Shown piece after piece: positions 17,906 to 39,623 of a stretch of DNA of 64,000 nucleotides. The notes under the pieces were generated by a model. It saw nothing but the letters and a program-made list of their open reading frames with translations. It was not told the origin of the DNA and did no database searches. Source of the stretch: Lachnospiraceae bacterium (GTDB lineage: Bacteria; Bacillota; Clostridia; Lachnospirales; Lachnospiraceae); the NCBI GenBank assembly GCA_014804615.1, contig JAAUZL010000023.1:200668-264667 (forward strand). The letters run 5' to 3'. The first letter of the stretch is position 1, and each line of letters begins with the position of its first letter. Both the position numbers and the translations under genes were made by a program.

Positions 17906-18244
17906 CTATGAATTTATTTGAATCCATCGTTGAATTATGTATTCCCAATCCATACCATCCTGTAAAATACGGAGTACAGTTACGGTATCCCTATCATCAT
18001 CTATCACATAAAACAATAAATGGTTACTTTGTGATTTCATATAAATATCATATCCACGATATTGAAAGCCTGTTGTTTGGTGGCTGGTTGGAAACATCGC
18101 TAATTCCTCAACTGCTTTTCTGACCTTCATGGAAAAATTTTCGGCATATTCACGGTACTTGAAATTTTGGATGATATAATGTTTTTTATTCTTTACATCA
18201 ATTTTGCCGCTTTGTGCGATTACAACCCTATATCGCTTATTCAT
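17906..18244 (-). CDS. ParE/RelE-family toxin
   Basis: 112 residues with the plasmid-stabilisation fold: YRVVIAQSGKIDVKNKKHYIIQNFKYREYAENFSMKVRKAVEELAMFP, then RGYDIYMKSQSNHLLFYVIDDDRDTVTVLRILQDGMDWE. ParE toxins poison gyrase and RelE toxins cleave mRNA; which applies here cannot be told. AAGGGG stands before the ATG. The start lies 9 bases after the stop of a small antitoxin-like gene, giving the usual antitoxin-toxin order. Confidence 0.85.
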   Translation of the reverse strand: MNKRYRVVIAQSGKIDVKNKKHYIIQNFKYREYAENFSMKVRKAVEELAMFPTSHQTTGFQYRGYDIYMKSQSNHLLFYVIDDDRDTVTVLRILQDGMDWEYIIQRWIQINS

Positions 18245-18253
18245 CTGTACCCC

Positions 18254-18412
18254 TTATATACTGTCAATTTCTTTCCACGCTTCTTCAATGGTCTGTACTC
18301 TTCCACTTTCCATATCGTCAATCGCTTCATCAAGTTTGCCAAACAACACTTCCATTGCATCATCTATGGAAGATGCGTTTTCTACTGCTTTTGCCGCTAT
18401 TGCTGTTGCCAT
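18254..18412 (-). CDS. Putative antitoxin of the ParE-type pair
   Basis: A 52-residue ORF, ATG at 18412, acidic and helical: AKAVENASSIDDAMEVLFGK, then AIDDMESGRVQTIEEAWKEI. Short acidic proteins of this form pair with ParE/RelE toxins and bind them through the C-terminal half. It has no clear DNA-binding domain, so operon autoregulation may depend on other factors. The gene is tightly linked to the toxin gene (9 bases). Confidence 0.75.
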   Translation of the reverse strand: MATAIAAKAVENASSIDDAMEVLFGKLDEAIDDMESGRVQTIEEAWKEIDSI

Positions 18413-18509
18413 ATAGATCATCCTTTCTTAATGCCGTTATAAATAACATATCACAGAATTAAAAATTTATCCATTCCCTTTATCATTCTTTTTTTGCTTG
18501 TTAAAAATC

Positions 18510-18522
18510 GGTACAAAATGAT
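18510..18522 (+). repeat. 13-mer shared with the integrase arm region
   Basis: GGTACAAAATGAT here is identical to 46969-46981, next to the broken integrase and tRNA-Pro. Here it lies 24 bases from an excisionase-like gene. It could be a recombinase arm site or a remnant of an end; chance cannot be excluded. Confidence 0.35.
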
Positions 18523-18546
18523 TAATCTCCAAGAATCATCTTGATT

Positions 18547-18729
18547 CTATATATCAATTATCGCACCACTGTACTTTTCTATATATCCATCCAGTTCACT
18601 CTCTTTTACCAATAACTTCTTCCCAATCGTTATCTTTGGGAAATCCCTCCTTTGAAACAGCTTATATGTATTCGTCTTTCCCAGATGTAACGCCTCTGAT
18701 ACTTCTTTCACAGTTAAAAACTTTTCCAT
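18547..18729 (-). CDS. Excisionase-type HTH_17 DNA-binding protein
   Basis: 60 residues, nearly all a MerR-like winged helix: EKFLTVKEVSEALHLGKTNTYKLFQRRDFPKITIGKKLLVKESELDGYIEKY. Such proteins are excisionases or small regulators of mobile elements. GGGGG stands upstream of the ATG. No integrase lies beside it; the nearest tyrosine recombinase is the broken one at 45.8-46.9 kb. It is probably a leftover of an integrated element together with the neighbouring toxin-antitoxin pair. Confidence 0.85.
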   Translation of the reverse strand: MEKFLTVKEVSEALHLGKTNTYKLFQRRDFPKITIGKKLLVKESELDGYIEKYSGAIIDI

Positions 18730-19422
18730 AGCCCATTCCCCCTTATCTTAGTCATCTTCCACAGCTTTACACTTATCTGATCACCCTGTTATCTCCAGCA
18801 TCCCTCTTATTACATTCCATGTTTTTCTGCATAGTCTCATCCCCCTCTCAGCAAAAACTATGGCTGCGGGAGAAAGCATAAGCATACTTTCCCCCGTCTG
18901 CCATAAAAGCAAAGGCTCTACCAAAAAAAGCCCCTATCTCAAATCCTCATTTGCACCGTATTCCAGGACGGCATGACCGCCCCTCTGCTCTCCCCCCGGT
19001 ACAGGAATATCCAAGCCGCCTGTGGTTGACAGACGCCATGATACCGACAGAAGGTGGCGGCAGTTGACGAAGCTGCCCAGGCCGTTCCCTCAGTATCCCC
19101 CTTTCACCCTGCGGTACGGGAAATCTCTGGTCCTTCCCTTCGATGGATCATGGCGGTTAAGGTGTTACCAACACCCCTTACAGACCCTCCGATTTACCGC
19201 TCGTGCCTTAGATACGATCCCTTTTACAGTATGTACAAAAAACGGCCACACCACAGGCAGTCGTCGCGTCCGTGTCTGGGCCGCTTGCCGTGCTGACAGC
19301 TCCATGCGAAGGAAGAAACTTGAATACTGATTATGAACAGAATGTCTCTGTTATTTGTCAAAGTACCCGGGCGTCCCAAGACTTCCCTGTGCCTCCGCTG
19401 TCCCAATGCTGTCTATAAAAGC
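18730..19422. other. Non-coding block, partly GC-rich, origin unknown
   Basis: Nearly 700 bases without a credible gene. At 18865-18895 GGGAGAAAG and CTTTCCCCC form a hairpin. Positions about 18960-19330 are clearly more GC-rich than the surroundings and carry short open frames on both strands without ribosome sites. It may be a structured RNA or the remnant of a mobile element. Confidence 0.4.
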
Positions 19423-19464
19423 AAAAAAACCAACAGACTTCCCGCAAGGCTATTGGTTTTCTTT
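19423..19464. terminator. Bidirectional terminator hairpin
   Basis: An imperfect long stem: AAACCAACAG...CTATTGGTTT with loop CCCGC. It is followed by TTTTCTTTT on the plus strand and by TTTTTTTGCTTTT on the minus strand. It ends the minus-strand gene whose stop is at 19480. Confidence 0.8.
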
Positions 19465-19479
19465 TCCGGCTTTATGAAA

Positions 19480-20352
19480 TTAGTTCTCTTCCGCCCGTTT
19501 TCGCGGCGGCCATTTCACATCGTAAATATCTGCTCCGTATGGAAGATCTAACTTTTTGTCTTCACTCAGGACATATTCCTTACCGCCAACTCGGAAAACG
19601 GAACCCGGTTCATAGTCTCGGAACAAAACCTCAGTTTGTGTCATAAACATTTGATAGGTGTCATCATATCTCTCCTTTAGCACCGCTGCTCCCGCATTCC
19701 CATTGGAATAAAAATATTCCTGCTTGCGATCCCCTACCTGCACGGAGAAAAACCCCTCCGTAATGCCCGCTTCATTCAAACGTCTTCTCTCCGTTTCTTC
19801 AGAGCAGTGTAATCCGATAAAAGTGTTATTTCTTGAATACAAGTTCCAAAATTGTCCGATCTGGAAACTTGTATCATCTACGATCCCCCTGTTTATATCG
19901 GAATAAGGCTGTGTCAACCCTCCATATCCACAGGTAAGGATATGCGTCTTTCCAGCTTCATCCGTAAACTGATAATATTTCCCTGTCTGAATAACGATAG
20001 CATTGTTTTCTGCAACGACCTTTTCACACCTATCCAGACTGATACTCGGAATATCCTTATTAAGATATTTGACGCCATCGAAAATGAAACCATCCGGCGT
20101 CTCTGTTCCATCAAGATATGCAAAATTGATCTTATCCAGGATCTCATCCGAAACCTTTCCGGCAGTTTTACATACAGAGGCCGTGTATAATCCTATTTCC
20201 GCTAAACGATTGTCGCTTCTGATAAATAAATCTTTCTGTCCCTTCTTGACAGTATTCTGCTTGCCGAGCAAAACATCAAGAAGGCGCTGGTTTCTGCTTA
20301 GCGTTGTCATCGGATTTGAATTTATGTTTTTCCAGTTGACCATTCCCTTCAT
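19480..20352 (-). CDS. Protein of unknown function
   Basis: 290 residues from the ATG at 20352, which has GGAAGG 8 bases upstream; the ATG at 20409 has no ribosome site. It has no signal peptide. The N-terminal part is basic (NWKNINSNPMTTLSRNQRLLDVLLGKQNTVKKGQKDLFIRS). The middle has LDGTETPDGFIFDGVKYLNKDIPSISLDRCEKV and the C-terminal half is beta-rich (GKYYQFTDEAGKTHILTCGYGG; SVFRVGGKEYVLSEDKKLDLPYG). It is 89 bases downstream of the last permease gene of the BlaI operon. I do not recognise the family. Confidence 0.6.
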   Translation of the reverse strand: MKGMVNWKNINSNPMTTLSRNQRLLDVLLGKQNTVKKGQKDLFIRSDNRLAEIGLYTASVCKTAGKVSDEILDKINFAYLDGTETPDGFIFDGVKYLNKDIPSISLDRCEKVVAENNAIVIQTGKYYQFTDEAGKTHILTCGYGGLTQPYSDINRGIVDDTSFQIGQFWNLYSRNNTFIGLHCSEETERRRLNEAGITEGFFSVQVGDRKQEYFYSNGNAGAAVLKERYDDTYQMFMTQTEVLFRDYEPGSVFRVGGKEYVLSEDKKLDLPYGADIYDVKWPPRKRAEEN

Positions 20353-20441
20353 TGCATGAGCCTTCCTTTCTTTGACTGATACACTTTTATCTATATCGAC
20401 TCGATTCATGGACTTGATGAGTCTTTGAGGTTGTACGGCTC

Positions 20442-22298
20442 CTACTCCCTACACAAAATCTCCATCGGCTCCCGTTTCAGACTCCTGTTCATCCTCATAA
20501 GCGCGATTCCCGTTCCCGCCGCCGTGATCAATAAGCTGCAGCAGACCGCGATCCCTATCCCATTCTTTAACGGCGTCTCTTCCACCACGACCTCGTTGAT
20601 ATCAACAGCCTTCCCCACACTGTAAGCGCTGTCATAATAATCCGGGGCTGCGTTTTTCACAGAGATAGACCGGGAAAAGTGCATTCCTCCTGCCGCGCCC
20701 GCCATACTGCCGATCAGGACAATCAGGATAAATCCAGACAGGATCGACCGCCTGCACTGTCCGCGCGTCATGCCGAGAGAACGCTCCACCGCCGTCCGCT
20801 TCATCTGCCTCGTGACAAACAGATAACTGTAAAAAACTAACAGAAGTCCCGTCAGTATCACTCCCGCCGCCAATAAGACCAGAGAGAAGTTTTTCATGTT
20901 GTCGATCCCGGCTTTCAGCTGTGTATACCCACGGTCATAAAAAGTAAACTCCAGATCTTTCGTCCCATACTTCTCCCAGGCCGCCAGAAATTCCTCTATA
21001 GTCCCGTTCGGAATCCGGAAAGAAGTAGTGGCATCCATCATCGGCCCGCAAGACTGCAGATTCTTTCCGCTTCGCTCTTTGATCGAATGCATCGGAACGA
21101 TCAATTCGTCCGTACCTGAACGGAAACTTAAATCCGTATCCCCCACTGTAGTATCATAGATACCCACCACCGTGTATGCAGATGTCTCGAACGGCTCCAT
21201 TGAATTTCCCTCTGCATCAATCAGAGAACCGACCGAAGCGCCGTTTTCCATATCAAAGCGCCATCCCGCCGTCCAGCGGGTATCCGTATACAGCAGCTGC
21301 ACCTGGATCTGATCGCCCAGTGAAAGGCCATTATTTTCCATGAAGCTTCTCGGCGCCAGACAAACCTTCGCCCCGTCCCTGTACTCTTCCCCGCTGATAT
21401 CTCTTCCTTCTGTAATATAGGCATCCCCATTATAAAACGGCATCAACAGACAGGTTTCATTTGTTTCTGTGACCGGCTGCATATCCCACCAGTATGTTCT
21501 GGTCTCTACAAGACTTAACAATCTCCTCCCCGCATCCGTCTCATAGAAACCGTCGGTGACCTCAAAAATTTCCGGTCCATCCCGGAAAGGATCCTCTATC
21601 ACGCTCCCGTCCAGACGGTAAAGCTGCGAGGAAAGAGACACCGGTGCATACTCAAGGCTCATCATTGGGGATTCCTTCCTGACCTCTTCCGCCCTCTCTC
21701 CATGAAAATAACCATAACAGCTTAAAAAGGCAGCATAGGTTTTATCCTGATACAGCATCTCAGGCTCTGGATTATCATGGTCACAGAACCAGAGCGTGGT
21801 TCCCTCCAGCCTGCTGTCGCCGCCAAGCACTTTCGTGATACGAATCTTCACGGATTCCTCCGGTATACAGTCCTCCAGCGGCGTAAATTCTGCAACCAGC
21901 GCTTCCGTGGCCAGTCCATTGGGATACAGGTTCCTCCAAAATTTGATGTACTGCGGTGTATAGGACCCGTAGTGAGCCCTCTGCTCCGGCCCCGCAAGAT
22001 ATGTCACACCCGGAATATCCAAATCCTCCACCGTATCATACGATGTGTACTGCGCTCTTTTGAAAATACTGTAACTCTTTTCCTCCGCGTCCCATGTCCT
22101 GATCTGTTCAAAAGATTCCGGCCGTTGGCGCACCGTCCCTATCGTTACGAACTGATCCTCATACTTCTCCATCATGCTGCTGCTCTTCTGCCAGATGCAG
22201 ACTCCAAGAGTCATCAGCAGCGCAGCCAATACATTCAGCAGAAAGAACAGCGTTGTCTTTATGGGCGTCCGGGCCATCTGTCTTAAACTGTTTTTCAT
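20442..22298 (-). CDS. ABC transporter permease, FtsX/MacB type (large, copy 2)
   Basis: 618 residues. One membrane helix at about 14-36 (TTLFFLLNVLAALLMTLGVCIW), an extracytoplasmic domain of about 420 residues, then three C-terminal helices around 475-610 including SLVLLAAGVILTGLLLVFYSYLFV and the FtsX-type ERSLGMTRGQCRRSILSGF. It closely matches the 612-residue permease at 25518-27356 in layout and motifs (MLRTPLQ/MARTPIK start; YEDQFVTIGTV/YEDDFITIGTV; FYDRGYTQLKAGI/FYDRGYSALMEGI), so the two are paralogues. It is the last ABC gene of the operon; GGAGG lies before the ATG. Confidence 0.88.
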   Translation of the reverse strand: MKNSLRQMARTPIKTTLFFLLNVLAALLMTLGVCIWQKSSSMMEKYEDQFVTIGTVRQRPESFEQIRTWDAEEKSYSIFKRAQYTSYDTVEDLDIPGVTYLAGPEQRAHYGSYTPQYIKFWRNLYPNGLATEALVAEFTPLEDCIPEESVKIRITKVLGGDSRLEGTTLWFCDHDNPEPEMLYQDKTYAAFLSCYGYFHGERAEEVRKESPMMSLEYAPVSLSSQLYRLDGSVIEDPFRDGPEIFEVTDGFYETDAGRRLLSLVETRTYWWDMQPVTETNETCLLMPFYNGDAYITEGRDISGEEYRDGAKVCLAPRSFMENNGLSLGDQIQVQLLYTDTRWTAGWRFDMENGASVGSLIDAEGNSMEPFETSAYTVVGIYDTTVGDTDLSFRSGTDELIVPMHSIKERSGKNLQSCGPMMDATTSFRIPNGTIEEFLAAWEKYGTKDLEFTFYDRGYTQLKAGIDNMKNFSLVLLAAGVILTGLLLVFYSYLFVTRQMKRTAVERSLGMTRGQCRRSILSGFILIVLIGSMAGAAGGMHFSRSISVKNAAPDYYDSAYSVGKAVDINEVVVEETPLKNGIGIAVCCSLLITAAGTGIALMRMNRSLKREPMEILCRE

Positions 22299-22320
22299 CT
22301 TTCCTCCCTATCCGGGCAGC

Positions 22321-23535
22321 TTACTGTGAAACGGCCAGAAGCCCCATCACGCTCTTCCTGCCCATACGCCAATATGCCATGATGATACCGATGCCATACG
22401 CCGCAAGCACGACCCCGTTTACCCGGATCACGACACCCGGCTCTACAAAAAACAGCATAAACGCATCTCCCAACAGATTCCCAAGCAGGACCAGAATAAA
22501 CTGTTCTCCCAGAAAAGGAACGGTCCCTTTTACGCTCCCCATCCCCTGTAAACGCAGCAAGGCGTATTCCCCCATCCTGCCGTTCCCCAGAAGATAACTT
22601 ACGATATACCCGATCGCAAAAGTCAGGACACATACGATTGGCAGGAAAGACCGCATCACTTCAATAGACTGCCGCAACTGTGTCGCCATGGTAACGAAAT
22701 TGCCGTCCCTGACTGCCAGTGTATATCCGATATACGAATCCATTGCTGTCGGATCTCTTTCCATCAGTCCTATAGACTTCATCTCTTCCTTAAAATCATT
22801 GAGCCGCATCGGGTCATCCACATAAAACGAGACCGTATCTGCAAAGAACGGGATCTCCTGCTGATGATAGATCCCACGGACAGCCTCAAATGGCAGGACC
22901 ACATCCGGGGGAACCGCATCTGTCACTCCCATAAGACTTTCCATGCTGCCCACGATCTCCAGTTCGACCAGTGCCAGCGGAAATGCCTCGAGTTTAAAAA
23001 GCTCACTGGAGGCGTTGTAATAGTACATGGTCAACTGTATCTTATCGCCGGTTTCCCAACCGTGCTTCCTCATCTCGCTCTCCTCCACAATACACACCGG
23101 CCTGTCAGACGTGAAAACGGATTCATCATACTGCTGACTGAATTGGATCTTATCAACCGACAGACCGTCTACCGTCTCCGTTCGGTTGACCCCGCAAACC
23201 TGTAGATGCGCACTTCTTTCCCACTCCGCCTGTGTAAATTTCCCTTCTCCTGCCAGCAGCCAGACCGCGCAGGACTCGTCCGCTGTCAGATCAGAGGTAA
23301 GCAGGCCATCCAGCACGTTCTCTGAGATGAACAGGCCGCTGTCCCGGCTCCCGTTCTTATTGGTGACCCGGCAGTAGACCGGGGCATTCTCCGCCAGTTC
23401 GTCAAGCTGCCTTTCATAGCTGTGCATCGTTCCAAAATACAGATTCAGAAGGACTACTAAAAGAAGGCTGATCCCTACGGTGATCAGATTTGCCGCTTTT
23501 CTTCTTTTCAGACTATATAAGATGTATGTTAACAT
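22321..23535 (-). CDS. ABC transporter permease, FtsX type (small, copy 2)
   Basis: 404 residues: an N-terminal helix (AANLITVGISLLLVVLLNLYFG), an outside domain of about 220 residues, then three C-terminal helices with IVCVLTFAIGYIVSYLLGNGRMGEYALLRLQGMG. It is a paralogue of the 409-residue permease upstream of the ATPase (both have LLNLYFG, RQLDELAENAPVYC/VQLHDLAANTPIKC, VSFYVDDPMRLNDFKEEM/VSFYVKDPLALNEFKEEM). It lies 22 bases from the large copy-2 gene, with which it probably forms a heterodimer. Confidence 0.88.
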   Translation of the reverse strand: MLTYILYSLKRRKAANLITVGISLLLVVLLNLYFGTMHSYERQLDELAENAPVYCRVTNKNGSRDSGLFISENVLDGLLTSDLTADESCAVWLLAGEGKFTQAEWERSAHLQVCGVNRTETVDGLSVDKIQFSQQYDESVFTSDRPVCIVEESEMRKHGWETGDKIQLTMYYYNASSELFKLEAFPLALVELEIVGSMESLMGVTDAVPPDVVLPFEAVRGIYHQQEIPFFADTVSFYVDDPMRLNDFKEEMKSIGLMERDPTAMDSYIGYTLAVRDGNFVTMATQLRQSIEVMRSFLPIVCVLTFAIGYIVSYLLGNGRMGEYALLRLQGMGSVKGTVPFLGEQFILVLLGNLLGDAFMLFFVEPGVVIRVNGVVLAAYGIGIIMAYWRMGRKSVMGLLAVSQ

Positions 23536-23561
23536 TTCGTCTCTCCACTTTTTATTTCCTG

Positions 23562-24239
23562 CTACTCCCGCACCACCGAGAGCGTCCCGTCCAGCATACC
23601 ATAGACCACATCCGCAGCAGCCGCCACCGTCTCATTGTGGGTGACCACGATCACCGCATAGTTATCCTCATGGGCCAGCTTGCACAGCAGTTCCACGATC
23701 ACCTTCTCATTCTGGCTGTCCAGGTTCCCCGTAGGCTCGTCTGCCAGAAGAATCTCCCCGCCGGAAGCAATGGCTCTGGCGATAGCCACCCTCTGCTGTT
23801 CCCCGCCGCTGATCATGCTGGGCATCTTCTTATAAAGAGCCTCCGGCAGATCCACCTTTTTCAGATACTCCTGTGCCCTCGCCTTCGCCTCTTTCTTCGG
23901 CACGTGCTGCAACTCCATAGGGAACATCACGTTCTCCAGCACCGTCAGCAGCGGGAACAGATGAAACGCCTGATAGATCACGGAAGCCCGGTTCAGCCGG
24001 TAAGCGTCCCGGTTCATCTTCCGCATATCCTCTCCCTCTATGTTGAGCGTCCCCTCCGTGGGCACATCCAGCCCCGCAAGGAGAGAAAGAAAGGTACTCT
24101 TTCCGCTGCCGGACTTCCCCGTGATGGCGTACACCTTCCCTCTCTCAAAAGAACAGCTTACCTCAGAGAGCGCCTTTGTCTTCTGGTACTTCGTCTGATA
24201 GATATAACTCACATTTACTGCCTCGATCATCTTTTTCAT
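23562..24239 (-). CDS. ABC transporter ATP-binding protein (MacB/LolD type)
   Basis: 225 residues with all motifs: Walker A GKSGSGKST, Q-loop YQAFHLFPLLTV, signature ISGGEQQRVAIARA, Walker B ILLADEPTGNLD and H-loop VVTHNE. It is the only ATPase in an operon with four FtsX-type permeases, so it presumably energises both pairs. The ATG at 24239 has AAAGG upstream; the longer reading up to 24404 only overlaps the end of the upstream permease gene. Confidence 0.95.
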   Translation of the reverse strand: MKKMIEAVNVSYIYQTKYQKTKALSEVSCSFERGKVYAITGKSGSGKSTFLSLLAGLDVPTEGTLNIEGEDMRKMNRDAYRLNRASVIYQAFHLFPLLTVLENVMFPMELQHVPKKEAKARAQEYLKKVDLPEALYKKMPSMISGGEQQRVAIARAIASGGEILLADEPTGNLDSQNEKVIVELLCKLAHEDNYAVIVVTHNETVAAAADVVYGMLDGTLSVVRE

Positions 24240-24253
24240 TTCTACATCCTTTC

Positions 24254-25483
24254 TCATTCCGATGTCAAAAGTTCTAACGGTTTCTCCTTTGCAAGCAGCG
24301 CAAGAGCCACCGTGGTCCCCAGCATATAGCCCCCAAAGGCCGCACCGCACACCGTCAGGATCTCCCGGATCCCCTGACTGCCCACAACCAATGCCGACAG
24401 ACACCCGATCACATTTCCGATAAGTACAAGGACAAGCTGCTCACACCAGAACGCCCACACCGCGCGGGGCGCACCCACTCCCAGCGACCTAAACAGGGCA
24501 AACTCCTTCACCCTGCCGTTTGCCAGCAAATGGCTGATCACATAGCCCACGATAAAGACCAATATCCCCATAGGCAGTAAAAACGCCGTCAGAATACGGA
24601 TCGCCGTATTCAACCGGTCCGCCATTGTGATAAAGGTGCCGTCCTGCACATAGAGGGCGGTTCCCTTGTAGGAAAACCTGACGTTGTCCCCCTTATAGAT
24701 CTCCATAAGGCCAAGCTCTCCAATCTGCCCCATCTCTTCCTTAAATTCGTTGAGGGCAAGAGGATCTTTTACATAAAAGGAGACCGCGTCAGCCGTAAAA
24801 TCCACCTGATTCTCCTCCACCAGATCCCATGCCGTCCGAAAGGGCAGCAGAACATCGGGATATTCGTAAGATGCCGCCGGATCAGAATCATCGATCTGCC
24901 CCACAACTTTAACCGTTACAGGGGGCAGTTCACCACACCAGAGCTCATCTTTCTCATTATAATAAAAATAGTACACAGTGAGCAGAAACTCCTCTCCGCA
25001 GACATATCCCTGCTTATCCATCTCAGTTTTTCTCATGACACACACGCGCTCACTCCCGGTAAATACGGTTTCATCCCATCCATCCAGATACTGTATCCCC
25101 ATGTCCTCAGGCAGGACGCTGCTGTCGCTCTTATTGACCGCGCTTACAACCAGATTCAGATGCTCCTTCCAATCTTCGATGGCAAACTCACCATAGCCCG
25201 CCTTCATCTGTACGGAACAGTCCAGATCCCTTACCTGCTCTGCCGCCTGCAGTCCGCGCAGGATATCACTGCTCACAGCAATGCCTAACTCCCGTGTCCC
25301 GTCCGGATTCGTGATCGTACACTTGATGGGCGTGTTCGCCGCCAAATCGTGAAGCTGGACCTGATAGCTGCCGATAAGCCCAAAATACAGATTTAACAGA
25401 ACAGCCAGCACGCAGTTTACAAGAATCACCAGTATGCTTCTGCTCTTTTGACGCTGAATACTCTTTTGAATATAGTAGTACAT
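24254..25483 (-). CDS. ABC transporter permease, FtsX type (small, copy 1)
   Basis: 409 residues, same plan as copy 2: helix at about 16-38 (ILVILVNCVLAVLLNLYFG), an outside domain, and C-terminal helices with IRILTAFLLPMGILVFIVGYVISHLLANGRVKEFALFRSLGVG. AGGAGG lies before the ATG. It sits 14 bases before the ATPase gene and 34 bases after the large copy-1 gene. Confidence 0.88.
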   Translation of the reverse strand: MYYYIQKSIQRQKSRSILVILVNCVLAVLLNLYFGLIGSYQVQLHDLAANTPIKCTITNPDGTRELGIAVSSDILRGLQAAEQVRDLDCSVQMKAGYGEFAIEDWKEHLNLVVSAVNKSDSSVLPEDMGIQYLDGWDETVFTGSERVCVMRKTEMDKQGYVCGEEFLLTVYYFYYNEKDELWCGELPPVTVKVVGQIDDSDPAASYEYPDVLLPFRTAWDLVEENQVDFTADAVSFYVKDPLALNEFKEEMGQIGELGLMEIYKGDNVRFSYKGTALYVQDGTFITMADRLNTAIRILTAFLLPMGILVFIVGYVISHLLANGRVKEFALFRSLGVGAPRAVWAFWCEQLVLVLIGNVIGCLSALVVGSQGIREILTVCGAAFGGYMLGTTVALALLAKEKPLELLTSE

Positions 25484-25517
25484 TGTCTCCTCCTTTTCGC
25501 AGACACATTTACGGCAT

Positions 25518-27356
25518 TTATACTTTTTCCTGAGATTCCAGCAGATAAAGAGGCTCTCCTTTCAAAAGGCTGTGTACCGTAACACTTGAAATACTCATAC
25601 ACAGCACAAGCACCAGAACGCCCATCCCGCAGGAAACCGCAAGATCCCCCTGGGCCTGTCCGGATAAGTCGATCTCTGTCTGCGCCGAAAGTCCGAGGTT
25701 GCTGTATTTTCGGTTAAAACCATCCTGTCCTATATCCTCGACTTTTACCTGCTCCGAAACCGCCATACCCACCGCCACGCCGGGAACCGTTCCCAGGATC
25801 AAAAGGATCAGGATACCCGCCAGACAGATATTGCGGCACCGCTTCCCCGTCATCCCCAGCAGCCGCTCGATGGAAAGCCGCCTCTTTTGCTTCGTGATAT
25901 AAATATGAGAGATCTGCAAGGTCAATATCACCGCTGCGATCGATCCCATGATCAGCAAAGCGGCCGACATATTTTTCAGATTTTGTATCCCCTCCATCAA
26001 CGCAGAATACCCTCTGTCGTAAAAAGTATAGATCAGGTTATCCACACCGTTCTTTGCACTGGCTTCTATGAAATCTGCGATGGTTCCATTTTCGATCTGA
26101 AACGAGGTGTTTTCATCCGACATGGCTCCGAAATCCGCAATATTCTCCAATCTATTCTGCACGGATGCAAGCGGTACGATCAACTCCTCTCTCCCGATCC
26201 CTTTTACAGATGGCGTATAATCATAGAGACCGACTATGGTGTACGCATTTTCCTCAAAGGGCGAGAGCAGTTTCCCGTCAGGTCCCAATAACGAGATGCT
26301 AAAGCCTCCTCCTCCTGTAATCTGAAAGTTATAATCCACCCAATCCGCCCTACCTGTATAATAGAGGCGTGTCATGACCTGGTCTCCCACCGACAGTCTG
26401 TTGTTCTCCGCAAATTCTTTGGGCGCCAGACACACAGGGCTTCCCTGTGCGTACTCTTCCGCTGTGGGATACCGCCCCTCATATACCCATGCGTTCTCCT
26501 CATAGAAGGGCATCAAAAGATTCGTGCTGTTCGTTCCCACCACAGGCTGGGTATCGTTGTATACTGCCCCAATGTTCGAGATTGCCAGCAGGCGTTTCCC
26601 TTCATCCGTCTCATAAAATCCTTCCGTCACTTCATAGATACTCTGCATCTTAAGCGTATCTTCTATTCTCTTTCCCTCCGGCGTATACAATATGGGCATG
26701 ACACTATCCGGAACATATTCCGAGTCTATAATCAGATCTCCGCTCTCTTCCAATCGACTTCCGTGCGGCCAAAGCAACTGGCGAATCTTTGCCACATAAG
26801 TTTTGTCGGCCTTTAACTCGTCCGGATACCGGTTATTATGATCGCAGAACCACACCACAGAACCTTCCAACATTTTGGCATCACCCAAAATCTTCGTGAT
26901 CTTGATCTTTACGGACTCATTCGGGATACAGTCTTCCAAAGGGGAAAACTCCGCCACGATTATAAAATCGTCATTAGAATCCATCCGCAGATCACTATCA
27001 TGTACATACTCAGGAGTATAGGAGCCCCAATAGACCCTTTTCTCCGGTTCCATAAGATACGTTATTTCCGGGAACGCCAGATCCTCCTCCGTGGCATACC
27101 GATTATAGACAGAACTTTTGTATATCTGGTAATCCCCTTTCTCCGCATCCCACTCTGTACGTTCCCGTATGGTGTCAGGCTTCTGACTGACCGTTCCGAT
27201 CGTAATAAAATCATCCTCATAAGCCTTCGAGATCCGGTCGCTGGTAACCCAGAGATTGCCGCCCACCACAAGCATCACCGTCACGATCATAACTAACACA
27301 ATTATTAGTAAAAGCTGCAGCGGCGTTCTTAACATCTGTTTTACATGATTTTTCAT
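25518..27356 (-). CDS. ABC transporter permease, FtsX/MacB type (large, copy 1)
   Basis: 612 residues: helix at about 13-36 (LLLIIVLVMIVTVMLVVGGNLW), a long outside domain, then helices near 470-600 with ERLLGMTGKRCRNICLAGILILLILG. First ABC gene after BlaR1 (23-base gap, GAGGGG site). Homologous to the 618-residue permease at the other end of the operon. In such systems the large outside domain usually senses or handles cell-envelope peptides or lipids; the substrate here is unknown. Confidence 0.88.
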   Translation of the reverse strand: MKNHVKQMLRTPLQLLLIIVLVMIVTVMLVVGGNLWVTSDRISKAYEDDFITIGTVSQKPDTIRERTEWDAEKGDYQIYKSSVYNRYATEEDLAFPEITYLMEPEKRVYWGSYTPEYVHDSDLRMDSNDDFIIVAEFSPLEDCIPNESVKIKITKILGDAKMLEGSVVWFCDHNNRYPDELKADKTYVAKIRQLLWPHGSRLEESGDLIIDSEYVPDSVMPILYTPEGKRIEDTLKMQSIYEVTEGFYETDEGKRLLAISNIGAVYNDTQPVVGTNSTNLLMPFYEENAWVYEGRYPTAEEYAQGSPVCLAPKEFAENNRLSVGDQVMTRLYYTGRADWVDYNFQITGGGGFSISLLGPDGKLLSPFEENAYTIVGLYDYTPSVKGIGREELIVPLASVQNRLENIADFGAMSDENTSFQIENGTIADFIEASAKNGVDNLIYTFYDRGYSALMEGIQNLKNMSAALLIMGSIAAVILTLQISHIYITKQKRRLSIERLLGMTGKRCRNICLAGILILLILGTVPGVAVGMAVSEQVKVEDIGQDGFNRKYSNLGLSAQTEIDLSGQAQGDLAVSCGMGVLVLVLCMSISSVTVHSLLKGEPLYLLESQEKV

Positions 27357-27379
27357 CAGAAATTACCCCTCTCTCACCA

Positions 27380-28735
27380 TCAATGCGGGCATACCTCATA
27401 TGTATACACAGCAATCCTTTCCCCTCTGACTACATAGCCGCATTTGCTGCATCTCTGCGCATGATATTGCTTTATCTCACAGCTTGCATCTGATTTCTTT
27501 GTATGTCCTGCTAGTGCTCCGGATACGAAATCATGGCTGCAGCTTTCATACGTTGTATCTGTCTCTTCATCCATACACGGATAGATATTTCTCTCCGTAT
27601 CTATGAATTGCTTATCATATATAATCTCAAACTCTTCCACTTCTCCGTAGTCCTTAATTGCTTCCCCATCTGCCCCGTCAGGCGTAAAAGAAAAATCATG
27701 CACTCGGAGGGCTCCCGTTACTTCTTCCTGCGAAGCATTCTCTGACAGCTCTTGATGATATGTATCCCTATACGCAAATACCGTCATGGAATTGGCAAAA
27801 GCCAACACTGCCGCCAGCATCCATGCCACATACCGGTTCCATTTCTTCTTTGTGCTTAAATTCCTTATCCTATTCTTTATATGTTCCGCATCATCTGCAA
27901 ATCCATTCTGCCATCCCATAGAAGCCGCGTCTTTATCTGATGCAGCACACGACTCATCAATCAGCTGACCCAGATACTCCTTTACCTCCCCACTCGTTCT
28001 CCCCTGCATCACGATCTCATCACAGGAATATTCACAGATCCGCTCAAATTCACGCCGCAGCATCCACGCGAAAGGATTCCACCAATGCAGGATCAAAACA
28101 AGCCGCGCGAGCATCTTCCAAAGGACATCCAGCCGTTTGATATGTACCATCTCATGGCGGACATGCATCTCTGCCTCCCAGCTGCCTGTTTCCTTGCCAC
28201 ATATAATGACTGGTCTGCAGACGCCGAATGTCATCGTATGATCCCCGTTGCGCCCTTGGCATAGCATCACCGGACGCTTCACTCCATACTGCTTTTTCAT
28301 TTCCGCCAAAAAAGACTGCTGCTTCTCCGTCATTTCTGTGACTTCATATGTTAGGATCAGCCGTCGTATCCGGAAATATTTCAAAAACAGCCTCACCATC
28401 ATGATACAGACTATGAGCAGCCATACCGCCACTACTGCCGTCTGAATGATCCCGTAGGAATTGACATACGTCTTCTCTCCCACATGAACCACATACCTCG
28501 TCCATGCAACAGGGATCCGCACACCTTTCGGCTGTCTCCTCGGTATAGCAGTCCGAATCAGCTTCCTGTACCAGCCCTTCAAAAAGGGCATCGGGATCAG
28601 GAAGAACAGTACAGCCTCCTTTAGGATCAGATAGTACAATCTTGCGCTGACCTTATCCTTCAGCGGATACTTCAGCAATAGATAGAGCACCATCATTGTG
28701 CTTCCTGAAAGCGACATGACCAATAAGTATTCCAT
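27380..28735 (-). CDS. BlaR1/MecR1-type M56 zinc metallopeptidase sensor
   Basis: 451 residues. Membrane helices at about 5-22, 33-51 and 96-117, zinc peptidase motif HEMVH (194-198) with the third ligand in the ERICEYSCDE block, and another helix at about 308-325 (WMLAAVLAFANSMTVFA). The outside part is only about 120 residues and lacks a penicillin-binding domain; it ends with a Cys pair (CSKCGYVVRGE) and other Cys/His. So it senses something other than beta-lactams by the classic route. It overlaps the blaI stop by one base (TAATG), the standard regulator-protease pairing: on signal the protease inactivates the BlaI repressor. Confidence 0.92.
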   Translation of the reverse strand: MEYLLVMSLSGSTMMVLYLLLKYPLKDKVSARLYYLILKEAVLFFLIPMPFLKGWYRKLIRTAIPRRQPKGVRIPVAWTRYVVHVGEKTYVNSYGIIQTAVVAVWLLIVCIMMVRLFLKYFRIRRLILTYEVTEMTEKQQSFLAEMKKQYGVKRPVMLCQGRNGDHTMTFGVCRPVIICGKETGSWEAEMHVRHEMVHIKRLDVLWKMLARLVLILHWWNPFAWMLRREFERICEYSCDEIVMQGRTSGEVKEYLGQLIDESCAASDKDAASMGWQNGFADDAEHIKNRIRNLSTKKKWNRYVAWMLAAVLAFANSMTVFAYRDTYHQELSENASQEEVTGALRVHDFSFTPDGADGEAIKDYGEVEEFEIIYDKQFIDTERNIYPCMDEETDTTYESCSHDFVSGALAGHTKKSDASCEIKQYHAQRCSKCGYVVRGERIAVYTYEVCPH

Positions 28736-29124
28736 TATATATCCTCCAGGAACTTTCGCAGTTCATCCGCCTCATCACTGGTGATCTTCTCTCCTCCGTT
28801 TAATGCTACCATGAACTGATTCAGAGAACCGTCAAAGTAAGAATCCAAAAGATGCCTCGCCCTTCTCTGTTCATACTGCTGCCTGTTGAGCGCCGCTCGA
28901 TAATAACGCTTTCCCTGAAATTTCCTCTCCCCATTATACCGTACAGATACGACGCCCTTCTGTTCCATCTTGGACAGAAAGGTATACAACGTCTGTTTCT
29001 TCCATCCCTTATCCGAATTTTCACCAAACTGCAGGAAGATATCCTTGTAGGAATACTCCTTATCTTCCTTCCACATCCACTCCAATATCTCTTTCTCGGA
29101 TGCGGTAAGTATTATTTCATCCAT
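28735..29124 (-). CDS. BlaI/MecI-family repressor
   Basis: 129 residues, winged helix of the Penicillinase_R family: LTASEKEILEWMWKEDKEYSYKDIFLQF, then KKQTLYTFLSKMEQKGVVSVRYNGERKFQGKRYYRAAL, and a helical dimer/cleavage domain. AGGAGG lies before the ATG. As first gene it should repress its own operon (BlaR1 and five ABC genes) from an operator at the promoter just upstream. Confidence 0.93.
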   Translation of the reverse strand: MDEIILTASEKEILEWMWKEDKEYSYKDIFLQFGENSDKGWKKQTLYTFLSKMEQKGVVSVRYNGERKFQGKRYYRAALNRQQYEQRRARHLLDSYFDGSLNQFMVALNGGEKITSDEADELRKFLEDI

Positions 29125-29151
29125 CGTCTTGTCCTCCTCGCCTTTTACAAA

Positions 29152-29180
29152 ATTGTACTATAATACGATAGGACAGTCAA
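29152..29180 (-). promoter_or_regulatory. Promoter and likely operator of the BlaI-BlaR1-ABC operon
   Basis: TTGACT, 17-base spacer, TACAAT on the minus strand, 28 bases before the blaI start. The spacer and -10 contain GTATTATAGTAC, an imperfect inverted repeat with the GTA/TAC half-sites expected for BlaI-type operators. The operator call is inferred. Confidence 0.8.
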
Positions 29181-29926
29181 CAAAGAATGCCCGTTCCACT
29201 TTTCCAAATGTTCCTATAAAAATTTCTTAAACCAGAAGATTGTTTGTGAACAACGATTTCAAATTCAGAAAAATTCCTATTCATTCAAGACAGATCTGCT
29301 TTAGATATGTAAAAGTATTCAACCCGCTTTGTACTGAGATAAAGCGGTTATATGCCCTTCCCCCTATTGATGCGCAATATTTCTGATATTTTTATAGGAA
29401 TGTTCCTATAATATTGGTAATCAGAAATCTCGTTTTATCAGAAATTCAAAGTGAAACCGTTGCAAGTCAAAGAAGCTACCGCAATAGTTTTCTGATAAAA
29501 AAGTGACCATTGACTGTCCATGCCTTATAACTATAAGACTGGCAGGGATAAAAATTTCTGATAAAAATATGCTCATAGTAATTCGGCTACTGTCTGTTTT
29601 CAAAACATCAATTCTAATGAAGAATTAGCTGTTTAGGAGCATTGTCATAGATTCATACCGTTATCTGTAAAAAAACAGTTTATCATGGCATGAAGTAATT
29701 GTTTGTGAACTTCTCAGCAAGCAATTTAACGCTCATTTTTATCGGAAATTATTATGTGAGCGGAGTATACTGTTCTGGTTCAAAATATAGGTAAATCTAT
29801 ATTTTTATCAGAAACTTTTTCTGCTTTTAACCAGTGTTTTCAATGCTTTCAAAAATCATTTCTGATAAAACTATATTTCTGATAACCGATTTTATCAGAA
29901 ATTTCCGATAAAATTGGCAAGCAATC
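29181..29926. repeat. AT-rich non-coding stretch with about ten copies of a 12-bp motif in both orientations
   Basis: The motif TTTTATCAGAAA or its complement TTTCTGATAAAA, exact or with one or two changes, is seen near 29380, 29418, 29433, 29488, 29555, 29737, 29812, 29869, 29876 and 29890, plus a variant at 29903. Spacing is irregular and orientation alternates, so it is not a CRISPR. Separate copies of a TTCCTATAA element occur near 29210 and 29393-29410. No ORF with a ribosome site is present. It may be a protein-binding field (iteron-like) or a degenerate mobile-element end. Confidence 0.7.
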
Positions 29927-29957
29927 GATGGGGATATCCTTTTCGGATATCCCCATC
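29927..29957. other. Perfect 13-bp stem hairpin
   Basis: GATGGGGATATCC and its complement around a 5-base loop. Without a T-run it is not a normal terminator. Just after it, at about 29997-30011, TTGGGGACACCCCAA forms a second small hairpin in an unusually GC-rich 120-base segment. The layout recalls mobilisation or origin regions, but no relaxase gene is nearby. Confidence 0.55.
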
Positions 29958-30141
29958 ACCGCTTCACCGCCACAGGCGTCTCGCTTTGCTTGTTGGGGAC
30001 ACCCCAAGCCCCGGTGAAATCCGCTTCGCGCATTTCCCGAACACGCCTTAACTTGATAAGCCTGCCATACAATAATGCACTCACGGCATTAAATTCTAGG
30101 TACACACAACTATCAAATCTTGAATCATAATCATTAGCCCT

Positions 30142-30864
30142 CTATGTATTAACCTCAACTTCATCCCATGAAGTATTTCCCATTATCCATTCAAATGCGT
30201 GATGTCTCCATAGGGATATTACTTCAATATATCTTTTTTCTTTATCACTTAAATTGGCAAACATACCATTCTTTAATACAAAATCTTTCTCGTTAATATT
30301 TATGTATGGAATTTGTGAAAGTATATTCAAATATTGCTTACCAAATGTATTTTCAACTATACTACCAATACTTTCTTCCGTAAAAATCGGGTTATATGCT
30401 TCCCGTGTTCTCCAATGCCATAGCATGGCTATCTCTGTTTGTAATTCAATCTCCTTTTTTTCTCTAAGCTTACATTGCTCCTCTACTTTTTCATAAGAAT
30501 GCCTTATTCCGATTTGCAATATTGGATGAAAATCTTCCAAAACAAATTGCTCATAATCAGATAATCTGTTTACTAATCCTAAAGACCATAAACATGGTTC
30601 AACTGCTTCATATTGAACTTGATAGCGTAAAAGATCATTTTTATTTCCCTTTCCTATGCTTTTGTCAAATAAATACCTTTCCTCCCGTGTTGCATATTGC
30701 ATATAGCCTACATTATCTAGCCAATTTCTTATGGCTTCTCTTTGTTTTTCTCTTTCACTTATAGAATACCGCTTACCTTCAATTATCTTTTCTTCCAACG
30801 CACACCTATCCGATAAGCATACAAGAATAATTGCCCTCACCATAATTTCTTTTATACTTTTCAT
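30142..30864 (-). CDS. DUF4272-like protein
   Basis: About 240 residues from the ATG at 30864 (AAGGAG 10 bases upstream). The pattern REAIRNWLDNVGYMQYATREERYLFDKSIG, YQVQYEAVEPCLWSLGLVNRLSDYEQ and REAYNPIFTEESIG matches the DUF4272 family as I know it. The C-terminal part carries EKRYIEVISLWRHHAFEWIMG. DUF4272 proteins are common in toxin-immunity neighbourhoods. It is the last gene of the immunity-type array; its role as an immunity protein is inferred from context. Confidence 0.65.
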   Translation of the reverse strand: MKSIKEIMVRAIILVCLSDRCALEEKIIEGKRYSISEREKQREAIRNWLDNVGYMQYATREERYLFDKSIGKGNKNDLLRYQVQYEAVEPCLWSLGLVNRLSDYEQFVLEDFHPILQIGIRHSYEKVEEQCKLREKKEIELQTEIAMLWHWRTREAYNPIFTEESIGSIVENTFGKQYLNILSQIPYININEKDFVLKNGMFANLSDKEKRYIEVISLWRHHAFEWIMGNTSWDEVEVNT

Positions 30865-30949
30865 TTCTTCAGTTCTCCTTACCAATACATTCCACATCTC
30901 TGATATATTCTTTTAGATTAATTTGTAATTTCTCCGCCATAAACTCTCT

Positions 30950-31369
30950 CTATACCGTTGCAAAATAAAGATCATCGAGACTAAAATGATTTATATTCAC
31001 AGCGTCCTCAGATGTATGCCAATATATTTCCGGTATTTCTTGCTTCAGTTTATCTACATCAATTGTCCATTCATCAGAGCAAAAATCTTCTGTCAATACC
31101 ACTTCATAATCACAAAGAAGATACTGAATATTTTGAAATCGGTATTTACTTCTAACAAACGCCAACCTTATCTTGCTGTTTATCATACATACCGTTCCAT
31201 CTGTTTGATTACTGAACCGCGCCCATTCTTCTCCCGCGCCATCATCCCAATCTATTTTCAGCGTTTTATCCGCTTCTTGAATTTGCGCCAGTGTTTCCTT
31301 AAATTCTTTTTGATCCGCAAATACCTTTTTATGTTTTGCTCGTCTCAGGACTTCTAACATATCTCTCAT
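30950..31369 (-). CDS. Small protein of the immunity-type array, family not recognised
   Basis: 139 residues, soluble, acidic. The middle has IDWDDGAGEEWARFSNQTDGTVCMINSKIRLAFVRSKYRFQNIQYLLCDYEVVLTEDF. An AAAGG site lies upstream of the ATG. Codon use is AT-rich like its neighbours. It is unlinked to any toxin here; immunity function is suggested only by company. Confidence 0.5.
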   Translation of the reverse strand: MRDMLEVLRRAKHKKVFADQKEFKETLAQIQEADKTLKIDWDDGAGEEWARFSNQTDGTVCMINSKIRLAFVRSKYRFQNIQYLLCDYEVVLTEDFCSDEWTIDVDKLKQEIPEIYWHTSEDAVNINHFSLDDLYFATV

Positions 31370-31445
31370 TTATAATGTACCTTTGATTATACAGGATGGA
31401 TTCTTTCCTGATCAAATTCTTGTAACTTTTATATGGACACGATCT

Positions 31446-31973
31446 CTATAGGGAACTTTGTTTTAATAAATAATGATTCCCTCCTGCCAACGGCTTAATA
31501 ATGACGCCCCTTTCGTAAGCATCTTTTGCACCTATAGTATACCAATGATGAGGATAATATCCACTACCCCCATTTCGATTTACGACATAAGCACCTTTCA
31601 ATAATCCCTTTTTAAATTGAGTAATCACTTTTTTCCAAAGAGGATCAATATTATCAATTGAAAGAGCTCCCATACAAGATTCAACTAACTCTGTTTCATC
31701 ATCTTTTCCTAATAGTATGATCAAATCACCTCTTTTCTCATTCAAATATTCGTTGTATTGTTCTCTGCTGCAAATATCTATCCAACTTTTACATACAATA
31801 ATTTCTCTAAAATTTTCATACTTCTCTCTATCAGAAAGAAATATTTCTTTTGCTTCATATTCTGGAAATATTGTTATCCCATATGCCTTCAGATTATATT
31901 GTTGAACAATATTTCTTAAAAAATTTACTATTTCATCTCTTTTTGCATGAAATTGCATATTTATCTGTCTCAT
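31446..31973 (-). CDS. Small protein of the immunity-type array, family not recognised
   Basis: 175 residues, start with a GAGG site 7 bases upstream. A helical N-terminus (FHAKRDEIVNFLRNIVQQYNL) leads to an alpha/beta middle (GITIFPEYEAKEIFLSD, GDLIILLGKDDETEL) and a Gly/Tyr-rich end (VVNRNGGSGYYPHHWYTIGAKDAYERGVIIKPLAGGNHYLL). No catalytic motif is recognised. Confidence 0.5.
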   Translation of the reverse strand: MRQINMQFHAKRDEIVNFLRNIVQQYNLKAYGITIFPEYEAKEIFLSDREKYENFREIIVCKSWIDICSREQYNEYLNEKRGDLIILLGKDDETELVESCMGALSIDNIDPLWKKVITQFKKGLLKGAYVVNRNGGSGYYPHHWYTIGAKDAYERGVIIKPLAGGNHYLLKQSSL

Positions 31974-31979
31974 AAACTA

Positions 31980-32240
31980 CCTCACTTATCATATCCAACA
32001 AAATACATGGGTAAATCAGCATCTTCTAAGTCATAGAAAGTTTCCACTTCTCTTCTTTTTGGAACTCCACCAGCCATCGCTCGCTCAAGGTTTATTCCAG
32101 AGAAAAACCGAACGCACTTAATTGAGCATTCCCTTTGCAGATTGTACATTCACTCATTTGCTTTTTGTCTCTCGTTTTTCTAAAACTAACTTACCTGCTC
32201 TAAGTAACTTGTCAGTTAAATCTATATCTTACGCCATGAT
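31980..32240 (-). pseudogene. Fragments of decayed small genes
   Basis: On the minus strand three partial readings follow one another: DIDLTDKLLRAGKLVLEKRETKSK and stop; an overlapping ATG frame MSECTICKG..., resembling the start of a YgiT-type zinc-finger antitoxin; then, in another frame, INLERAMAGGVPKRREVETFYDLEDADLPMYFVGYDK and stop. None has a complete frame. This looks like collapsed remains of toxin-antitoxin or immunity genes. Confidence 0.4.
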
Positions 32241-32253
32241 ACTGGTTCACCAG

Positions 32254-32622
32254 CTAATTGTCGTATTTATACTTCTCATACATATATTCAGTCCTGTCAT
32301 ATGCAGTTTCTACTACTGTCTTATCGGTTGTTGCCAAAATCCATTGTTTTGCTATAGTATAATGAAATCCCCATTTCTTCTCATAATACTCCAAAAATGA
32401 ATACGTCTTTTCCATTATATTATTTACATCAACCGCTTGCGACTCAATAAAACTTTGCCATTCATAAAAGATCGCCATATCCATAGGTTTCCCATTTCCC
32501 CATAATTCTGGACAGATAGCACTCAGAAACCACGGCAGATCATCTTCCTCAACGTCCTTATTTCTATAACAATGATCGTAGCATTGATCTAAAATATAGA
32601 AAAACATTAAGAACGATTGCAT
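32254..32622 (-). CDS. Small protein of the immunity-type array, family not recognised
   Basis: About 122 residues from the ATG at 32622 (AAAAGG 9 bases upstream, better than the ATG at 32631). All-helical and acidic (FYILDQCYDHCYRNKDVEEDDLPWFLSAICPELWGNGKPMDMAIFYEWQSFIE, EKTYSFLEYYEKKWGFHYTIAKQWILATTD). The helical, Asp/Trp-rich form resembles known immunity proteins, but no family is assigned. Confidence 0.5.
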   Translation of the reverse strand: MQSFLMFFYILDQCYDHCYRNKDVEEDDLPWFLSAICPELWGNGKPMDMAIFYEWQSFIESQAVDVNNIMEKTYSFLEYYEKKWGFHYTIAKQWILATTDKTVVETAYDRTEYMYEKYKYDN

Positions 32623-32721
32623 TATTTTCATCCTTTTCTCCTTTTTACATTTTTATAATCCGCTCTTCTTATCCTACCATTGCACTATCGAGGATCATTA
32701 TGCAGCCTCTTCTCTCCATGC

Positions 32722-33690: not shown

Positions 33691-33724
33691 ATGTTTTACT
33701 TTTTCAGACGGCTATCAATTTGTT

Positions 33725-35488: not shown

Positions 35489-35516
35489 ATTCTTCCTTCT
35501 CTTACTTATATGAGCC

Positions 35517-36956: not shown

Positions 36957-36992
36957 ATTCTTCCTTCTCTTACCTATATGAGCCTTATTTAG

Positions 36993-37030
36993 CATTTTCT
37001 GCCATCAAGTCCCCGAAAACTATCATCTTC
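36993..37030 (-). pseudogene. Fossil C-terminus of a lost paralogue
   Basis: Immediately after the end of paralogue D, the minus strand reads VFGDLMAENAK and stop, followed by the same leader as before paralogue B. This matches the true C-terminus of paralogue C and marks a deletion between tandem copies. Confidence 0.65.
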
Positions 37031-37690: not shown

Positions 37691-37799
37691 CGTTAAATTT
37701 TCCACCATATAAATATACTCAAATTAATATGAGACCTGTAATTATAGAATATGCCTGTACTTAAATTCTACTATACTAACAATAAAATCTCCTTTAACT

Positions 37800-38231: not shown

Positions 38232-38308
38232 ATGCACTTTCTCTGCGCAATATATTGTATCATTGATATTTATTAAATCTATTGCCCTGACTCTCTTTAG
38301 TAAAGTAC

Positions 38309-38764: not shown

Positions 38765-38894
38765 ATATGCCTCCACATCTTATGAATTAACTTTTGTCAA
38801 GAAATAAAATCTAAAACAACAAGCTAACAAATCTTCAATTTTTATCTCTCATGCCAAATCACAATTCTAATATTACTATTGTGATTTATCAAAA

Positions 38895-39566: not shown

Positions 39567-39623
39567 TGTGACAATCTCCTGTTAAAAATACACTGACCGG
39601 CAAATGGTCATGCTTTCATTAAG

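Follow-up and report, generated by a model that had tools for sequence, protein, structure and literature searches.

A BlaI/BlaR1-headed operon with two mirrored FtsX-type permease pairs and one ABC ATPase: a candidate immunity locus in a Lachnospiraceae genome

What is the role of an operon in which a single ABC ATPase gene lies between two mirrored pairs of FtsX-type permease genes, all of them behind a BlaI-type repressor and a BlaR1-type protease without a beta-lactam sensor? We analyzed such an operon in a 64,000-nucleotide stretch of Lachnospiraceae bacterium DNA (assembly GCA_014804615.1, contig JAAUZL010000023.1, positions 200,668 to 264,667; hereafter the window), whose source genome, the window genome, is 98.8% complete in 29 contigs. 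On balance, the operon is probably a stand-alone, inducible resistance operon against cysteine-rich bacteriocins released by neighbors, namely ribosomally synthesized and post-translationally modified peptides (RiPPs) of the CcpM/CLI_3235 kind made by radical S-adenosylmethionine (SAM) enzymes, the cell itself being a non-producer.

Organization of the operon

The operon occupies positions 20442-29124 of the minus strand and consists of seven genes in the order blaI, blaR1, large1, small1, ATPase, small2 and large2:

28735-29124, minus strand: blaI, BlaI-type repressor of 129 aa (Pfam Penicillinase_R, 70.8 bits)
27380-28735, minus strand: blaR1, BlaR1-type M56 membrane protease with an HEMVH motif and a short C-terminal outer domain (Pfam M56, 104.3 bits)
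25518-27356, minus strand: large1, FtsX/MacB-type permease subunit of 612 aa (FtsX 35.8 bits, MacB_PCD 29 bits)
24254-25483, minus strand: small1, FtsX-type permease subunit of 409 aa (FtsX 23.4 bits, under the cut-off of 25.5)
23562-24239, minus strand: LolD/MacB-like ABC ATPase of about 225 aa (ABC_tran 120 bits, LolD model 209.7 bits)
22321-23535, minus strand: small2, permease subunit of 404 aa (paralogue of small1, 38%)
20442-22298, minus strand: large2, FtsX-type permease subunit of 618 aa (FtsX 26.3 bits; paralogue of large1, 41%)

A first-pass annotation, made from the sequence alone, had described the order large-small-ATPase-small-large behind BlaI and BlaR1, and all seven genes were found on the minus strand in that order. 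It had also described the two pairs as paralogous, and the identities given above, which extend over the full length of the proteins, bear this out. Its end coordinate, 29180, includes a candidate promoter; the coding part ends at 29124. Intergenic gaps of about 10-35 bp represent operon-like spacing, blaR1 overlaps blaI, and the ATPase gene has an earlier in-frame ATG that overlaps the stop codon of small1. The gaps between the operon genes contained no terminator-like site.

The composition had been called uncommon, and a search for the same gene order elsewhere agreed with this. We compared 81 loci, comprising the window, two further loci of the window genome (C5 and C21) and 78 named loci, several of which came from one genome. 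The mirrored order was present at 2 of the 81, the window and L058. The commonest order was small-ATPase-large (39/81), and about nine of the loci had, in some form, at least two permease genes of one kind with one ATPase.

Relationship to CcpM-type RiPP clusters

The stretch from large1 through the ATPase (23559-27362) was 93.8% identical over 3.8 kb to L104, a locus from a Lachnospiraceae metagenome-assembled genome in which many N depress this figure, and the match ended right after the ATPase stop codon. At the amino acid level, large1 and small1 were 98% and 97% identical to L104:6572-8410 (603 codons) and L104:8445-9674 (371 codons), respectively. Upstream of this unit, L104 carries a RiPP cluster headed by a BlaI gene (L104:762-1189; 80% nucleotide identity to the window blaI over 428 bases), followed by genes for an MsbA-like exporter, CcpM (TIGR04068, 551.5 bits; cut-off 500), TIGR04066 (292 bits; cut-off 200), a TIGR04069-like protein (59.7 bits; cut-off 70) and a 59-aa precursor with a Cys-rich core. 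Downstream are a weakly subtilisin-like protease, a second BlaI, a BlaR1 (80% nucleotide identity to that of the window) and a homologue of ORF309, the reading frame that follows large2 in the window.

For the second pair, small2 was 89% identical to the C5 copy and large2 was 93% identical to the L057 copy, both at the amino acid level. In L058 (UBA7143), the transporter genes are preceded by an exporter, CcpM, TIGR04066, an acyl carrier protein (ACP)-related gene and one precursor, and followed by a second CcpM, TIGR04066, a different precursor and an S8 protease. Its two CcpM proteins scored 561 and 563 bits (TIGR04068). L104 and L058 are thus CcpM/CLI_3235 RiPP clusters, their precursors being assigned by sequence, and the closest relatives of both window pairs sit in clusters of this type. 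In the DNA examined, CcpM or TIGR04066 genes were found at 8 of the 78 named loci (L058, L064, L072, L073, L079, L104, L108 and L119); L072 is included despite the truncation of its CcpM at a contig edge, and L089 was left out because its radical SAM gene is merely 28% identical. TIGR04066 exceeded its cut-off in 10 of 397 family genomes and in 4 of 61 relatives, and the adjacency of family loci to RiPP genes is far above this frequency.

The window genome, when searched, gave no TIGR04066 and no CcpM (TIGR04068) above the cut-offs, and a comparable search of G024 gave two TIGR04066 genes, on the same contig as L058 (266 and 271 bits). Positions 18300-32000 of the window held no RiPP-like short Cys-rich reading frame, and the window itself is not a CcpM/CLI_3235 cluster. 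With this RiPP kinship and the biosynthesis genes missing from the genome, the locus looks like immunity without production. A separate MsbA-like exporter was present at 6 of the 8 RiPP-linked loci; the FtsX unit would thus be unneeded for export, which fits a role in immunity.

CcpM-type RiPP clusters have been described in gut and soil Firmicutes, their immunity being only guessed at in that account (PMC10731318). SacP23, a CLI_3235-class peptide, is reported there to be active against Gram-positive bacteria, and its cluster, as tabulated, comprises CcpM, TIGR04066, TIGR04069, an exporter, an ECF sigma factor and a protease, with no FtsX permease (PMC10731318). Roseburia intestinalis L1-82 is listed with a comparable cluster (PMC4573289). 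The open-access literature yielded no paper on BlaR1/BlaI together with FtsX-type ABC transporters, nor on FtsX proteins with bacteriocin immunity and radical SAM enzymes.

Copy number and exchange of the ATPase

The first-pass annotation had proposed that both pairs share one ATPase, and no second ATPase set aside for either pair came to light. The window genome encodes small and large subunits, five of each, at the window (two pairs), C5 (one pair) and C21 (two pairs), and has three family ATPases, one at each of these loci; the score of the next-best ATPase falls to 155 bits, and no family ATPase lies away from a permease pair. In nine genomes from this genus we counted 19 family ATPases and 27 small subunits (in 28 rows, because one G021 gene is split); small subunits outnumbered ATPases in four of the nine. 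The split gene, at G021:C51:2095-14650, is interrupted by roughly 11 kb of inserted DNA, whose genes include a BlaI/BlaR1 pair.

A pair without an ATPase was scored at 15 of the 81 loci. Two of these, L076 and L112, had split or partial ATPase matches and were excluded from the ATPase-less count. At ten of the remaining loci, at least 4 kb of DNA was examined on either side, which indicates that supply of the ATPase in trans probably exists. At L090 (2088-8614) and L096 (9465-15251), BlaI and BlaR1 accompany two large-small pairs and no family ATPase is in view, as though the motor came from elsewhere.

Phylogenetic trees of the large subunits and the ATPases disagreed. In the large-subunit tree (55 rows), ten loci formed one clade with 100% support. 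In the ATPase tree, seven of these ten joined the window, C5, L057, L058 and L080 in a 12-row clade (SH-aLRT 99), and the rest, L087, L088 and C21, stayed apart. The seven ATPases were 82-92% identical to the window ATPase, while the adjoining large subunits were just 36-38% identical. The trees therefore indicate that ATPases are exchanged between distant permeases. Ks between the window ATPase and the seven exchanged copies was 0.74-1.15, suggesting that the exchange is old and the protein strongly constrained; recent copying between loci as the sole cause of the high identity was rejected on these values. Against its close copies, the window ATPase showed Kn of 0.03-0.06 and Ks of 0.45-0.99, which indicates purifying selection. 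A near-constant ATPase alongside very different permeases supports sharing, without proving it, and one ATPase appears to drive both permease pairs.

The use of one ATPase by several permease sets is established for the MsmK-type ATPase of sugar importers (PMC4519317). Those systems differ in being importers with unrelated permeases and in having no ATPase gene between two mirrored pairs.

Ectodomain of the large subunit

At L119, a single small subunit, a single ATPase and a single CcpM-like maturase stand with two cassettes in tandem, each consisting of a precursor and a large permease. The tandem duplication, at L119:9403-14206, consists of the end of the ACP-related gene, the precursor and the large permease. 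The two precursors do not differ in residues 1-26, and their similarity over residues 27-52 is 23-38%. The two large subunits were 33-57% alike in the ectodomain (121-280) and 95-97% alike at 441-560, with pN/pS near 1 at 201-240. Since the diverged part lies in the outer domain, beside diverged peptides, we infer that the large ectodomain may recognize the peptide; the sequences suggest that it tracks it. L119 thus represents a natural experiment on the matching of peptide and transporter, with two peptide-plus-permease cassettes and one motor.

BlaI/BlaR1 regulation

One feature upstream of blaI is a candidate control site:

29146-29180, minus strand: candidate promoter TTGACT-17-TACAAT with the dyad TACAATTTTGTA (29157-29146) over the second hexamer, a consensus match only

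Of the minus-strand promoters listed, this one (29180-29152) alone lies upstream of a gene of the operon; promoter-type matches were not more numerous than expected by chance. The dyad TACAATTTTGTA is a candidate BlaI operator. Another type of dyad, GACTA(C/T)-N5/7-TAGTC or TGATTACA-N-TAATCA, follows the promoters of the BlaI genes at L067, L080, L083, L090, L096 and C19 of the window genome, and resembles the Clostridium thermocellum BlaI motif as given in PMC8457756. No operator common to all blaI promoters was found; the window dyad differs from that of these loci.

BlaR1 had been described as lacking a penicillin-binding sensor and ending in a short Cys-bearing outer domain, and its domain content agrees: M56 was the sole Pfam domain, and the protein reached 77 of the 400 bits of the generic BlaR1 model. 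H194, E195 and H198 of the HExxH motif were invariant in 7 of 7 aligned relatives, as were five Cys and three His residues of the tail, and the protein is accordingly an M56-type protease. Its AlphaFold model was poor (mean pLDDT 50), and a reading of the whole model was dropped for that reason; the tail at 401-440 had block means of 72-82 and three strands. The outer tail may sense the peptide.

BlaR1-type proteins were present at 12 of the loci scanned (the window, C5 and ten of the 78 named loci), and the gap between BlaR1 and permease was <420 bp at six of these (the window, C5, L083, L090, L096 and L126). The window genome encodes six M56 proteins, two of which adjoin two of the three pair loci. 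A second BlaI/BlaR1 pair, at C19 (L224:10741-12482), has the same Cys/His tail (55% over 84 aa) and no FtsX permease nearby. The operon suggests what BlaI/BlaR1 pairs that lack a beta-lactam sensor may do.

Comparison with known systems

FtsX was above the Pfam cut-off in large1 and large2 and just below it in small1, and MacB_PCD was found in large1; small2 had no Pfam match and was placed by its full-length alignment with small1. The four-helix permease layout and the LolD/MacB-like ATPase place the proteins among the FtsX/MacB (type VII) ABC transporters, small1 being below the cut-off and small2 assigned by paralogy only. The model of large2 (mean pLDDT 87.5, pTM 0.79, 59 sequences) showed the FtsX/MacB layout, with helices at 12-47, 458-507, 512-542 and 577-607 and a domain at 48-457 between them. 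The best Foldseek match was the Streptococcus pneumoniae R6 transporter 5xu1_M (E 6e-11), followed by MacB and LolCDE. VIA-align gave 16.9 for HrtB (rmsd 13.0, 299 aligned), 16.8 for 5xu1_M (13.4, 347), 16.0 for LolC (10.2, 360), 15.1 for YtrF (8.5, 360) and 15.1 for BceB (3.4, 178); since these scores are comparable, the fold assigns a superfamily and no single subfamily. In profile searches against solved structures, the small subunit matched the lantibiotic permease PsdB best (E 0.002), and the large-subunit alignment matched LolF only, across the FtsX helices. Large+small-like fusions of 1040 and 1087 aa adjoin the ATPase in the TIGR04066 loci L207 and L217, which supports a heterodimer.

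The operon resembles LolCDE in having two unlike FtsX permeases, each with four helices and a domain that separates TM1 from TM2, in its separate LolD-like ATPase, and in the alignment of the large2 model to LolC/LolE (VIA Z about 16). It differs in that the ATPase, although LolD is its best NCBIfam model, stays below the equivalog cut-off (209.7 of 307.75 bits), the cell is of the Gram-positive type and the large ectodomain is far longer; it is not LolCDE proper, and a role in lipoprotein sorting is not suggested. MacB and 5xu1 were the top structural matches, but they differ in that the window ATPase is unfused to a permease and a heterodimer replaces the homodimer. No MacA-like partner was found among the operon proteins, so the operon does not form a MacAB tripartite system.

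BceB is one 10-helix permease, and the BceAB type is defined by it together with a BceRS-type sensor kinase. The window operon shares with BceAB/PsdAB the proposed function in peptide-antibiotic resistance, the FtsX helices and the PsdB match of the small profile, but it has two four-helix subunits, encoded by two permease genes per pair, and BlaI/BlaR1 instead of the BceRS two-component system, with no kinase among its genes; it is thus not of the BceAB type. Like BlaI/BlaR1 and MecI/MecR1, it combines a winged-helix repressor and an M56 membrane protease in one operon. Unlike these beta-lactam-sensing systems, to which it does not belong, its BlaR1 has a Cys/His-rich tail in place of the penicillin-binding sensor, and its targets are a transporter and not a beta-lactamase. 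The clusters of CcpM, TIGR04066 and TIGR04069 house its relatives at L104 and L058, whereas biosynthesis genes are missing from the window. The PADLOC matches of the ATPase were all of a generic ATPase type and BlaI had a single weak CARF/winged-helix match, which does not point to an anti-phage system.

Proposed function and alternative explanations

In the explanation that we favor, each small and large subunit would form a LolCE-like heterodimer, which would capture one kind of peptide, or the target under attack, on the outside of the membrane and clear it at the expense of ATP, and the single LolD-like ATPase would serve both heterodimers. The operon may have arisen when a large-small-ATPase unit, as in L104, was joined at the ATPase gene to an ATPase-small-large unit, as in C5 and L057. 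BlaI would repress the operon; the outer Cys/His domain of BlaR1 would detect the peptide or its effect, and BlaR1 would then cleave BlaI. A further proposal, which we regard as tentative, is that BlaR1 senses a cysteine-rich radical-SAM RiPP through this domain and derepresses a modular immunity machine in which one interchangeable ATPase serves two heterodimers with peptide-specific large ectodomains, the permease cassettes being gained, lost and swapped as immunity alleles that non-producers collect against the peptides of their neighbors. Compared with the first-pass annotation, the analysis adds the RiPP context of the relatives, the lack of production genes in the window genome, the exchange of ATPases and a candidate domain for specificity.

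Several observations weigh against this explanation. The 73 loci outside the RiPP-linked group showed no CcpM/TIGR04066 gene in the DNA examined, many of them being cut by contig ends, and many loci adjoin extracytoplasmic function (ECF) sigma, LytTR or OmpR regulators instead of RiPP genes. An FtsX-type permease and ATPase of the window kind were found at only 4 of 18 TIGR04066 loci from other genomes, L207 and L217 with their fusions among the four, so most producers would protect themselves otherwise, and the authors of the SacP23 work assign its immunity, by prediction, to the TIGR04066 protein (PMC10731318). Three of eight precursors tested matched TIGR04065 weakly, all below its cut-off, and the rest not at all; L104, L058 and L119 are metagenome-assembled. 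At L119, the large subunits also showed low synonymous divergence at 481-560, and part of the contrast is therefore due to gene conversion; moreover, family-wide hypervariability of the large ectodomain was unsupported (0.35 for segment 120-270 against 0.35 for TM2-4). The dyad TACAATTTTGTA, the candidate operator of the window, was not found upstream of the L104 BlaI. Finally, the C5 ATPase is 93% identical to that of the window and could serve one pair in trans, for which reason sharing is given here as probable and no more.

The most serious alternative, in our view possible though doubtful, is a broad transporter of the BceAB/HrtBA/PsdAB kind for cell-envelope stress or antimicrobial-peptide detoxification, sometimes recruited to RiPP clusters, whose substrate would be a lipid, a cell-wall antibiotic or a peptide from the host or the environment. 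Consistent with it are the PsdB match, the many loci without RiPP genes in view and the variety of regulators around the family loci (the ECF sigma family at 16 of the 81, a protein of 228 aa without known family at 11, LytTR at 8 and OmpR type at 7). Against it stand the excess of RiPP adjacency over TIGR04066 frequency and the nearest relatives of each window pair, which lie in RiPP clusters that have precursors of their own. Accordingly, of the two functions that the first-pass annotation had named together, peptide-antibiotic defence gained support from these relatives, while the same regulators leave room for cell-envelope stress. That the operon consists of two independent adjacent transporters, one using the neighboring ATPase and the other that of C5 or C21 in trans, seems unlikely to us. 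The C5 ATPase, at 93% identity, and the ATPase-less pair loci with long flanks would allow it, but there is no spare ATPase among the three that stand at pair loci for five pairs, the spacing is operon-like and L058 has the same mirrored order. We consider it improbable that the FtsX unit exports a RiPP or signal peptide, or helps to mature a RiPP, with the window copy as a remnant without substrate, even though the unit is embedded in RiPP operons and the window genome has no biosynthesis genes. Most of the 18 TIGR04066 loci have an exporter and an S8-like protease without an FtsX unit, the RiPP-linked loci mostly have their own MsbA-like exporter, and the seven window genes are intact, with the ATPase under purifying selection and no sign of decay.

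On the immunity reading, the operon is a candidate immunity system for CcpM-type RiPPs, with the large ectodomain, to which L119 points, as its specificity part. A resistance operon outside a producer genome would bear on predicting which gut bacteria resist such peptides.

Neighboring genes

One further gene follows the operon:

19480-20409, minus strand: ORF309, 309 aa, downstream of large2, with the conserved part from near 20352

ORF309 may be the last gene of the operon. It matched no Pfam or NCBIfam family above cut-off, and homologues also adjoin the L059 (96%) and L104 (88%) loci.

The intergenic region upstream of blaI (29380-29900) contains several copies, identified by eye, of a TTATCAGAAA / TTTCTGATAAAA unit. 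Beyond it lies a low-GC stretch (30142-41164; 32-41%) with many small minus-strand reading frames, including a DUF4272 protein (30142-30897) and a SUKH/SMI1-KNR4 protein (37800-38237), which looks like an array of toxin-immunity-type genes beside the resistance operon. Four neighboring proteins of 225-618 aa within it (32722-37708) begin with a membrane anchor or a signal-like sequence; the starts of the proteins at 33725 and 35517 clearly resemble each other, and one has a weak FG-GAP match, with otherwise no family. On the other side of the operon, a ParE-type toxin is encoded at 17906-18244 (Pfam, 34.9 bits).

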